Shown in pieces: positions 40,145 to 46,448 of a stretch of 64,000 nt of DNA (position 1 is the first letter of the stretch; each line of letters starts with the position of its first letter). The notes below the pieces were generated by a model. It was not told where the DNA came from and did no database searches. It saw only the letters and a list, made by a program, of their open reading frames with translations. Source of the DNA: Natronosalvus halobius (GTDB lineage Archaea > Halobacteriota > Halobacteria > Halobacteriales > Natrialbaceae); assembly GCF_024138145.1 (NCBI RefSeq), contig NZ_CP099997.1, positions 1,736,001-1,800,000 on the forward strand, in the 5' to 3' direction. Both the position numbers and the translations under genes were made by a program.

Positions 40145-41661
40145 TCACTGTTCGCCCCGCCTCGGTAACCAGGATCGGAGATTGAACCCGAACTCGTTGG
40201 CGAGCTGGATGTCCTTGTCCGTGAACGCATCAGTGACGACGAGGGTCGCCACGTAGACGAAGAGAACTACGAGCGGGAGCGTGGCGACGATGAGGAGGTG
40301 CGAATCGACGAGGAGGACGATCGGAAGCCCGGCGAGGGCGGCCGGGATCCCCGCGAACACGACGGTGCCGAAATCTCGAGTGAAGGGGTGGATGCCGTCG
40401 ACGACGTGGAGTTCGCCCAGGGTCAAGAGGCCGACGACCACGAGCGCGGACGCCGACCCAATAGCGGCCCCGTTGATGCCGTAAATCGGAACGAGGAGGA
40501 ACGAGACGACGAGGTTGGTACCGAAGAGTGCGAGGGTGTTGGCGAAGACGATACGGGAATAGCCCATCCCTGCAGGAGAGTGCCGTCAGGGCCGCCGAAG
40601 GTGACGTTGAACAGGAAGGCCATCGCGAGGAGGGCGACGACGGCGCTGGCTTCGCCGTACTGGGGTGTGTACATCACGGAGAGAAACGCCTCTGCGCCGA
40701 GGGAGATGATGATCGCGAACGGGAGGGTGATGCCAACGATCCAGCGAGCGGCGACGCGAAAGCGCTCCTGGACGAGAGCGGTGTCGTCTCGCGTTTCGGC
40801 GATGAGGGGTTTGAACACGGGCGAGAGGGAGTTGAAGATAATCATCAACCCGGAGCCGAGCATGTAGCCGACGCGGTAGATGCCGACCTCGCCCGAGTCG
40901 AGGAAGTATCCGAGTACGAAGTAATCGACGTGGCCCATCAGGACGAAGACGACGCTCGTCATGGCCAGCGGCACCGAGTACCGGATCATCGGCCCCGGCG
41001 CGACGGGTTCGAACGTCGCCGACATGATCTCCCAGGCGCGGTAGGTAAAGAGGAGGGCGCCGACCACGATGCACACGAAGAGCCCGACAACGTAGCCGCC
41101 CACGAGCCCGAGTAACCCGAAGCCGGCCAGGAGGAGTGCCGCGGTGACGACGAACCGAACCACCGGGCGCACGATGTCGCGCATCACGACCCGGTACTGG
41201 AGCTTCTTGATGCTGTAGAAGGATTTGAGCAGGACGTTGTACATCGCGAGCATCGGAATCGTCACTGCCAGCAACAGGAGTGCGACCTCGAGCGAGGGCT
41301 CTCGGAAGAAGACCCCGAACCGCTCGGCCGTCATCGCGAGGGCGAGCGCGACCAGCGACGACGTGACCAGGACGGTCGCCGTCACCTGCACGATGACGCC
41401 CTTGGCCTTCCCGGGTTCGTCCGCCTCGAGGTACTGCGGGACGAAGTAATCGATGGCCAGCGGCAATCCGAGGTTCGCGAACACCTGCATGAAGAGGATG
41501 ACCGACGTCGCGAGTACCCACAGGCCGTAGACAGAGGGGCTGACGAACCGCGTCATCAGCATCACGATGGCGAATGCGAGGACGCCGTTGAGCACGTTCC
41601 CGACGAACGTGATACTCCCCTGTTTCGCCAGCGTGGAAACCCCTGAATCGTGTTCGGTCAT
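40145..41661 (-). pseudogene. Wzx-type polysaccharide flippase, disrupted by a frameshift
   Basis: A protein of about 500 residues split over two frames. From 41661 the first frame (MTEHDSGVSTLAKQGSITFV) runs through 10 or so helices to FGGPDGTLLQ. Flippase sequence then continues in another frame from MGYSRIVFANTLALFGTNLV (40567) to the stop at 40145. Restoring one base near 40568-40570 (CAG-G.G-ATG) joins the frames as LLQ-A-MGYS. It may be a real mutation, inactivating the last four helices, or a sequencing error in a G-run. Intact, it would flip lipid-linked oligosaccharide for surface glycans. Confidence 0.85.
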
Positions 41662-43244: not shown

Positions 43245-43283
43245 ACAGTAACTCGTATTACGCTGAATCCACGACGGTGGAAA

Positions 43284-43442
43284 TCATTCTCGGATTCCTC
43301 GGGTGAACGCGACCGTTCCGATAACAAGAACGAGGATACCAACTGCACCTACGTTACTACTGGTTCCTGGATGGCTTGAAATAGCTACAATTGCTGTTCC
43401 AATAACACTAAGCTGCGTTCCTATTAAAGCGTTCTTCATCAT
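43284..43442 (-). CDS. 52-residue two-helix membrane protein, possible immunity-type partner
   Basis: A short gene in the AT-rich island. It begins with two consecutive ATGs (43442 and 43439) and reads MMKNALIGTQLSVIGTAIVA, then ISSHPGTSSNVGAVGILVL, ending VAFTRGIRE before a TGA. Two hydrophobic helices (about residues 5-21 and 31-47) are joined by a polar turn, a helical hairpin. It starts 43 bp after the secreted-protein gene on the same strand, so they are probably co-transcribed. Small membrane proteins next to secreted peptides are often immunity factors; here that is only a hypothesis. Confidence 0.6.
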   Translation of the reverse strand: MMKNALIGTQLSVIGTAIVAISSHPGTSSNVGAVGILVLVIGTVAFTRGIRE

Positions 43443-43485
43443 AATATCCCTTTAAATTATATTTTCCAATTAGGTTTAAATATTT

Positions 43486-44274
43486 CTAATCAATAAGGAT
43501 TGCTCTCTCAATGTCCCAAGCTGTCGAAGCCCCCCACGGGAGTGTAACACAAAGAGCGCCAGCACAAATCGAAATTGATGCACTGCCCGTGATATAGCTA
43601 AAGGCATAATTATGTTTATAATTAAATTGCACTGCATTAGCTCCGGGCCTTATTCGTTCTATCGGGACACCCATTCCAACAATGGTATGTTGTGGCATCG
43701 AATAAGTGATATCTACAGAGCCGGCAACGCCGGTTCCAGTATCATAATCTTCATGACTTATATCATGTGTGGGAGGGGCAATGTCATGCTCACTATTGTC
43801 ATAAGTTGACCAATAATTAACACCATCAGAATCGGGACGTTCTCCCGTCCAATCTGAGTCAGGCCATGTGATTCCTATGGCATCTGCGATTTGAGTAACA
43901 TCTCGGACGGTAGATTTTGCTCCAATAAATATTACATTCCCTGCTGCATACCATAAATTATCTCCTCTCGATAATCGGCCTATGATTACATCAATCTCGC
44001 TCTCAGTTTTAGTATAACGGCCTTCTGTCGAGAAATCTGAACCAACGAGATCTCTCCCAGTTATTTTTGATTTGTTATGTACACACTCAACATTGTTCTT
44101 CTCTAAGATTTCAGTGGCTTTTTCAACGCCTTGTTCTTGCAGCACTTCAATATATTCGTTTTCCAATCCTAATTCTCTGATCGCCGCCTTCTCTGTTACA
44201 GCATTAGCCGTCCCAACTACATTGAGCGTTGATAGTCCGATACCTGAGGCTAAAACCTGCCTTCTATTGACCAT
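43486..44274 (-). CDS. Unknown Tat-type secreted protein in AT-rich island
   Basis: A 262-residue protein. MVNRRQVLASGIGLSTLNVV is an RR-containing signal, with probable cleavage after GTANA (residue 25). The mature part starts with a charged helical region (EKAAIRELGLENEYIEVLQE), then a mixed domain with EIDVIIGRLSRGDNLWYAAG. The C-terminus is hydrophobic, glycine-rich and has two cysteines (SASISICAGALCVTLPWGAS). Codon use is AT-rich, unlike all neighbours, indicating recent acquisition. I do not recognise the family. A halocin-like precursor is one possibility: the N-terminal part could be a pro- or immunity region and the C-terminus the active peptide. Confidence 0.75.
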   Translation of the reverse strand: MVNRRQVLASGIGLSTLNVVGTANAVTEKAAIRELGLENEYIEVLQEQGVEKATEILEKNNVECVHNKSKITGRDLVGSDFSTEGRYTKTESEIDVIIGRLSRGDNLWYAAGNVIFIGAKSTVRDVTQIADAIGITWPDSDWTGERPDSDGVNYWSTYDNSEHDIAPPTHDISHEDYDTGTGVAGSVDITYSMPQHTIVGMGVPIERIRPGANAVQFNYKHNYAFSYITGSASISICAGALCVTLPWGASTAWDIERAILID

Positions 44275-44500
44275 AGAAAATACTTAACTCGAGAATTTAT
44301 ATAATTTTCTATTTTATATTATAATATTTTATAAAAGTGCGATTCATATATCGTATTTTGAGTGTCGATTATTTTTCGATGATAATATTAAGAATACGTT
44401 TGGTATATGTCGCACAAGAGTAGTAGCCCACTCCAATCAATAGCAGCGGCGCGGTGTGGGTACCCACACGGTTTTCGTCACCCGTACACACTGTCCGCAC

Positions 44501-45496: not shown

Positions 45497-46265
45497 GGTC
45501 GAGCACGTCGCCATCTATCGCGCACCGACCACCGTCGTCGACGCAGACGCCGTCGCCGCGTGGCTCGAGTCGCGACTCGAGGCGTCGGTAACGGTACGAG
45601 AACGGTTTCTGGACGACGTTCGGAGCGACGGTCTGGCGGAACGGTTCGCGGCCGCCCGAATTCGACGGCCGCGCGAACGAGAGACTGGGAACACCATGCT
45701 CGGAACCGTTCGCTACGAGAAGCGCGTTCTCGAGCATCCCGAGCGGGAAGGCGGCGTACTCTACGACGGCGCGCAGATTGGTCGCGCGCTCAACCGTGAA
45801 CTGCCGGCCGGCGAGCGAGGACTCGGGTGGGCACACGTGGTCCTTCTCGACCGCGCACTCGCGACGTGGGGCGACCACGACGGACGCTGGCACAAGCGGG
45901 TGACGGTTCCCGGCCAGCCGGCGCTCGTCTCGGTTCCTGGACTGTACGAGGCGCCAGCCAAACCCGAATCGTACTACCAGGAACAACAGCGACGGGCGCT
46001 GGTTTCGGGCGACGTGCCACCGAGAGAGATTCTCGAGCGCGACGTCGCGGACGACTTCCTCCTCGAAGACGACCCCCGGACGACCGACGCGATTTGCGGG
46101 TACGTGCTCCAGGCCGTTCACTACCTCGCGACTGGGGAGCCGTTCTGTGCGAAGCCGACCTGCCGCCTGTTCAATGCCCACACCCACGAGGCTGTCGTTC
46201 GAGCCCAGTTAGTGGGGACGGCGTTCTGTGCCGAGCACGCCACGGTTTATGCGGATGCGGACTGA
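45495..46265 (+). CDS. DUF6775-like protein, possible degenerate archaemetzincin relative
   Basis: A 256-residue protein from ATG 45495 (MVEHVAIYRAPTTVVDADAV). The C-terminus has TGEPFCAKPTCRLFNAHTHE and later FCAEHATVY, a Cys-x4-Cys ... Cys-x2-His pattern. This resembles the structural part of the archaemetzincin signature (GxxHCx4Cx...CxxC), but the HExxH zinc-protease core that should precede it reads AVHYLATGEPF, so catalytic His/Glu residues are absent. I recall a haloarchaeal family, DUF6775, labelled a putative metallopeptidase. Catalysis looks doubtful; zinc binding by the cysteines is likely. The stop codon is inside a direct repeat. Confidence 0.7.
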   Translation: MVEHVAIYRAPTTVVDADAVAAWLESRLEASVTVRERFLDDVRSDGLAERFAAARIRRPRERETGNTMLGTVRYEKRVLEHPEREGGVLYDGAQIGRALNRELPAGERGLGWAHVVLLDRALATWGDHDGRWHKRVTVPGQPALVSVPGLYEAPAKPESYYQEQQRRALVSGDVPPREILERDVADDFLLEDDPRTTDAICGYVLQAVHYLATGEPFCAKPTCRLFNAHTHEAVVRAQLVGTAFCAEHATVYADAD

Positions 46266-46284
46266 GGCGGATGCGGACGCTGAG
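46251..46284. repeat. Direct repeat spanning a stop codon, then low-complexity DNA
   Basis: GCGGATGCGGACTGAG (46251-46266, with the TGA stop) is followed at once by GCGGATGCGGACGCTGAG (46267-46284). Degenerate GCGGATGCGG-like sequence goes on to about 46400. Confidence 0.7.
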
Positions 46285-46448
46285 GCAGGTGCGGCCGATG
46301 GTGAGGATGTAGTTGTGGATGCCGAAGAAGATGCGAGCGACGGCCCGGGTGCAGTTGCGAATGCTGAGGCGGACGCGGGTGACGGCGCGGATGCGGGTGC
46401 AGGTACGGGTGCAGTCGCTCGCGTTCGCACTCGCACTCGCTCAGGCGA

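Follow-up and report, generated by a model that had tools for sequence, protein, structure and literature searches.

Linked genes for a Tat-signal protein and a two-helix membrane protein on an acquired haloarchaeal island: a candidate polymorphic toxin–immunity cassette

Halocin production is said to be very common among haloarchaea, but to our knowledge the halocin genes described so far are few, and immunity genes hardly any. The subject of this report is an AT-rich island (positions 43245–44440, no strand assigned) within a stretch of 64,000 nucleotides from the genome of the haloarchaeon Natronosalvus halobius (G000:C1:1736001–1800000; hereafter the window, to which positions refer unless a contig is named). 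An earlier note, made from the sequence alone, had put the island forward as a candidate halocin–immunity pair. It carries two genes, one for a protein with a predicted twin-arginine translocation (Tat) signal and one for a small protein with two transmembrane (TM) segments. On balance we favour the view that this cassette encodes a polymorphic, halocin-like toxin that would act on the cell envelope, together with a dedicated membrane immunity protein.

The closest described systems share some, but not all, of these features. Protein halocins of the halocin H4 type (Haloferax mediterranei) are exported haloarchaeal proteins larger than 10 kDa (class: PMC12893001, PMC6759562), as the larger protein of the island would be – its mature form is predicted to be acidic and about 26 kDa, and it is proposed to inhibit relatives – and the likeness is one of description. 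The available parts of the H4 description contain no separate membrane immunity gene, unlike the two-gene layout seen here. Halocin C8 offers a second point of comparison. It is a haloarchaeal antimicrobial whose immunity protein is defined, but there a single gene encodes both: the cysteine-rich mature peptide and the immunity protein lie on one polypeptide, whereas here the partner is a separate open reading frame (ORF) and the cysteines are unconserved. The structural features compared do not support membership of the halocin C8 type; moreover, neither the secreted protein (P0001) nor 46 members of its family matched a functional model in Pfam or NCBIfam, libraries in which the presence of a C8 model was unchecked.

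HapP (HFX_0892) of Haloferax mediterranei is an antagonistic precursor activated by a protease, which releases two N-terminal helices that carry the activity (mBio 2026, PMC12893001, from the passages available). Here, too, we would be dealing with a secreted haloarchaeal precursor of similar size (the mature part of HapP is 705 bp), with helices predicted just after the signal; in the same passages no partner gene is noted for HapP, and the resemblance is again one of description. The HapP primers given there do not suggest relatedness to the present family, and protease processing of our secreted protein, by analogy with HapP, is a possibility. Bacterial toxins that are secreted, act on membranes and are paired with small membrane immunity proteins (TspA/TsaI, PMC9484751; class II bacteriocins) resemble the cassette in having an adjoining small membrane gene, polymorphism and orphan immunity genes. 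They show no detectable homology to the present family (no Pfam or NCBIfam match), which differs also in its predicted Tat export and in its restriction to haloarchaea in the searches made. By analogy, the module may work as these bacterial pairs do, although no homology to any of them was found. The titles, abstracts and passages of the literature searched held no description of the pair. Makarova and colleagues, who surveyed conflict systems of archaea in 2019, are said to have proposed uncharacterised secreted families with linked small proteins as archaeocin-like by the same reasoning, and the present family may be listed among those candidates.

The island is about 1.2 kb long and has a G+C content (GC) of about 0.41, against 0.65 in its surroundings. 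Measured over 500 bp at a time, GC is 0.39–0.44 across 43250–44500 and 0.60–0.68 on either flank; nowhere else does GC over 1 kb fall below 0.52 (window mean 0.645, s.d. 0.037). At third codon positions (GC3) the two island genes stand at 0.33–0.34, their neighbours at 0.86–0.87. These neighbours are thi4 (PF01946, E 4e-61) and a gene for an NAD-dependent epimerase (PF01370, E 2e-32). In six congeners the gap between them is a mere 88–279 bp with a GC of 0.56–0.66, compared to 1260 bp with a GC of 0.41 here, and thi4 is 99.4% identical to its counterparts in two of the six. The cassette was therefore gained at this site. The earlier note had claimed both a sharp compositional island and a recent acquisition: its coordinates agree with the GC and GC3 contrasts, and the empty sites of the congeners give direct evidence of gain. 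At the edges there are no direct or inverted terminal repeats and no target-site duplication, the only matches being of 11 bp and at the level of chance. A perfect 16-nt palindrome (GTGTGGGTACCCACAC, 44454–44469), absent from the congeners' empty sites, lies in the stretch that separates the island from the epimerase gene; it is a possible operator or boundary element.

The larger gene, that of the proposed toxin, runs from 44274 to 43486 on the minus strand, begins with ATG and encodes 262 residues. Approximately the first 25 of these (MVNRRQVLASGIGLSTLNVVGTANA, 44200–44274, minus strand) form the putative Tat signal peptide, which would be cleaved after ANA; the TAT_signal model gives weak matches in family members. 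Among 46 members the twin arginines are nearly invariant, as are D131, Y219-x-H221 and W253, in a family whose members are strongly divergent (13–35% identity). A TATA-like box read from the sequence (TTATATAAATT, 44294–44304, minus strand) precedes the start codon by about 25 nt, a spacing consistent with a leaderless haloarchaeal transcript; a sigma-70 promoter scan was set aside as uninformative for an archaeon. In a low-confidence AlphaFold2 model two or three short helices follow the signal and the remainder is rich in beta structure.

The secreted protein founds an unannotated and very divergent haloarchaeal family. Relatives at 23–34% identity are present in 14 of 125 genomes of the host's family (its own genome counted), and a profile search of the class gave matches in 67 of 391 genomes and 36 of 86 genera (E <= 0.001), the weakest of which are partial and in many cases cover the signal region only. 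In a phylum-wide sample, matches at E <= 1e-5 were confined to the host's own order. The distribution is patchy. Neither tblastn against plasmids and phages nor megablast against plasmids returned a match, and viral contigs, PHROGs and phage records likewise yielded no relative. Searches of Pfam, NCBIfam, PHROG, PADLOC and PDB gave no functional match; PDB profile matches to endoglucanase 6k98 (E 0.05) and to moesin were at chance level and vanished with a larger profile.

Evidence that the two genes belong together comes from their linkage. The small ORF (43442 to 43284, minus strand) starts 43 bp past the stop codon of the secreted gene, on the same strand, and encodes 52 residues with two hydrophobic segments; it is the proposed immunity gene. 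The protein carries charged residues at its two termini (MMK…, …TRGIRE), which makes a topology with both termini inside and the short loop outside probable; the loop would then face a toxin that arrives from outside. A partner that satisfies strict criteria – an ORF of 45–80 residues with at least two hydrophobic segments, starting on the same strand no more than 180 bp beyond the secreted gene – was found at 25 of 49 non-redundant loci. The expectation from dinucleotide shuffles is 0.12 loci; of shuffled downstream regions, 0.26% contain an ORF of this kind. At the same 49 loci the opposite strand gave three and the upstream side none, while just two of 106 other genes of the window and the loci were followed by such an ORF; both of these were spurious, one lying in a frameshifted flippase gene and the other antisense to the window's own small ORF. 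Five further loci have a homologous partner, but in a different orientation or with a different start codon.

The small ORFs of relatives are under purifying selection. The ratio of nonsynonymous to synonymous substitution rates (dN/dS) was computed for five closely related partner pairs from groups B, C and D (see below) and ranged from 0.27 to 0.58, being about 0.3 in four pairs and 0.58 in the fifth. This indicates that the small ORFs tested are translated and subject to selection; the window's own small ORF has no close relative, and hence stood outside the test.

The small proteins are not all alike. They comprise at least six homology groups (A–F), and these track the clades of the secreted protein. 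Group A, with the motif G-x-Q-[LI]-[ST]-x-x-G, includes the protein of the window and those at loci L002, L028, L034 and L060, while the secreted proteins that group B accompanies form a single well-defined clade (L026, L032, L033, L037, L047, L048 and L049). The group C partner is found downstream (L036, L038, L039), divergently upstream (L013, L024, L029) or convergently downstream (L027): orientations differ and yet the partner adjoins, so linkage outlasts rearrangement. Similarity among secreted proteins is correlated with similarity among their partners, with a Mantel r of 0.25, which rises to 0.32 when the C-terminal 95 residues are taken by themselves, and p ~0.001 in tests that take no account of shared ancestry; co-variation is thus strongest for the secreted C-terminus. 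Upstream at L020, and at L067:4365–4622 (minus strand), homologous three-helix membrane proteins of about 84 residues are encoded a few hundred bases upstream of related secreted genes, and are perhaps a further type of partner. One contig (G019:C1) has the family gene twice, at L042 and L053, 100% identical and about 22.3 kb apart, with group B small genes of the same genome also 22.3 kb apart; the segment appears to have been duplicated, or to be an assembly artefact.

The reading of the earlier note is thus supported in part. The twin-arginine N-terminus agrees with its description of a Tat-signal protein, as does the small ORF with its description of a 52-residue two-helix protein 43 bp downstream on the same strand; that this is the minus strand is not stated in the note. 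The pairing, for which it had advised a wider search, recurs in many haloarchaea, and the small ORF itself is conserved in group A, with counterparts elsewhere giving the dN/dS values reported above. Its statement that no known family is recognised also stands, domain-library searches having returned no match to a known enzyme family. As for the C-terminal cysteines that it stressed, SICAGALCVTLPWG is indeed located near the C-terminus of the secreted protein, but the two cysteines are not conserved in the family, and the pair was rejected as a functional motif on the basis of the family alignments (A1, A9).

The fate of the two genes is uneven. Seven loci retain an intact small gene beside a secreted gene that is broken or reduced: a TGA interrupts the latter at L002 and two stops at L043, about 140 codons have been deleted in frame at L107, and the C-terminus alone remains at L066, L073, L074 and L100. 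Such decay would be expected if a protective gene outlives its toxin. Homologues of the small proteins are also common in genomes without an adjoining secreted gene, again as immunity genes would be, many of the weak matches being possibly unrelated two-TM proteins. L066 (G000:C1:1014500–1019800) is a second locus of the family in the window's own genome: the C-terminal remnant is followed, after 80 bp, by an intact two-TM ORF of 62 residues whose type is different. Certain orphan small membrane proteins that closely resemble one another (L086 and L090–L095; ...ELLGVQLTLVGLFLVVLFEGV...) are widespread in haloarchaea; these match group A distantly and do not lie beside a secreted gene.

These features, together with the strong divergence, the patchy distribution and the empty sites, are in our view best accommodated by a scheme in which the cassette would be one member of a polymorphic and horizontally moving module for antagonism among haloarchaea. 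The product of the larger gene would be exported by the Tat pathway and its signal removed; the mature protein, released or displayed on the cell surface, would inhibit related haloarchaea at the cell envelope, and the two-helix protein, residing in the membrane of the producer, would block the toxin there. Several observations weigh against this scheme. The shared ancestry ignored by the Mantel tests and the doubtful identity of many weak orphan matches are two. In addition, no catalytic or pore-forming domain was recognised in the secreted protein, nor was a usable structure obtained: AlphaFold2 runs on three sequences each gave a predicted local distance difference test score (pLDDT) of 40 when led by P0001 and of 36 when led by the homologue from Halobiforma nitratireducens, values on account of which no fold search was made. 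The main weakness is the existence of intact secreted genes that are unpaired. Of a toxin–immunity pair one expects that the small gene may persist without the secreted gene, which is seen, and that the secreted gene is never found without its partner; yet for some 15 intact secreted genes no partner could be recognised within about 1 kb. Of the loci that retain an intact secreted gene, roughly one in three is of this kind (for example L004, L015, L018, L019, L022, L044, L046, L050 and L057); L030 and L031 are too, even though the same genomes carry paired paralogues of the same clade (L048 and L047, respectively). Some unpaired genes, L030 and L031 among them, may be covered by the partner of a paralogue; others may use a partner of a kind that our searches do not recognise.

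Unpaired members are less troublesome if the secreted protein is a component of the cell surface or matrix – an adhesin, an S-layer-associated or a lectin-like protein – with the two-TM protein as its membrane anchor or assembly partner, and the pair swapped between strains under pressure from phages or grazers. Tat export, the beta-rich (low-confidence) secondary structure and a degree of divergence typical of surface proteins are all in keeping with this idea. We nonetheless judge it unlikely, while regarding it as the most serious of the alternatives: domain searches of the secreted protein recognised neither a C-terminal anchor nor a lipobox nor any known surface domain, and an anchor with nothing to hold would be difficult to account for, yet the small genes outlast decay of the secreted gene and occur alone. 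The same persistence bears upon two further alternatives. In one, the pair would serve as a unit for signalling or sensing, the small membrane protein being the receptor or regulator that answers to a secreted factor. The secreted-plus-membrane layout and the co-variation of partners speak for this, but proteins of 50–75 residues with two TM segments have essentially no cytoplasmic output domain, seven decayed secreted genes have kept their partner, and no linked regulator was noticed; we consider such a unit improbable.

Slightly more doubtful still is the proposal that the small protein is no immunity protein but an accessory dedicated to exporting, folding or processing its secreted neighbour. 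Partners that are adjacent, mostly downstream and clade-specific would suit such a role, but orphan small genes, and loss of the secreted gene with retention of the partner, would be unexpected, and many secreted genes do without a partner altogether. A last possibility, already disfavoured and very improbable, is that AT-rich mobile islands carry the two genes as passengers with no relation to each other, or that the small ORFs are not real genes. AT-rich islands do carry many small ORFs; but the 25 paired loci against 0.12 from shuffles, the homologous partners, which follow the clades of the secreted protein and persist through inversion, and the dN/dS of about 0.3 in four of five close pairs (0.58 in the fifth) all argue against it.

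A broader claim, which we hold more tentatively than the reading of the cassette itself and regard as an open bet, is that polymorphic toxins of haloarchaea form a large class as yet undescribed – Tat-exported proteins of about 26–30 kDa with a new fold, each with a cognate two-TM neutraliser of 50–75 residues – that spreads horizontally and whose orphan immunity genes serve as defence. Should this be correct, it would be the first haloarchaeal family of secreted toxins with separate and interchangeable membrane immunity genes. With matches in up to 67 of the 391 haloarchaeal genomes sampled (E <= 0.001; some of the weakest are partial), the module would supply ready candidates for toxin–immunity pairs. 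Strains that naturally carry orphan immunity genes could be used as controls, and the genetic basis of antagonism among haloarchaea would become testable in laboratory hosts.

Two features of the window outside the island deserve mention. An intergenic tract of low complexity at 46240–46440 is made up of repeated GCGGATGCGGACGCTGAGG-like units. At 40145–41661 (minus strand) a polysaccharide-flippase-like gene falls into two frames, of 412 and 140 residues, that overlap, suggesting a frameshift near 40540–40570 that marks either a pseudogene or a sequencing error.
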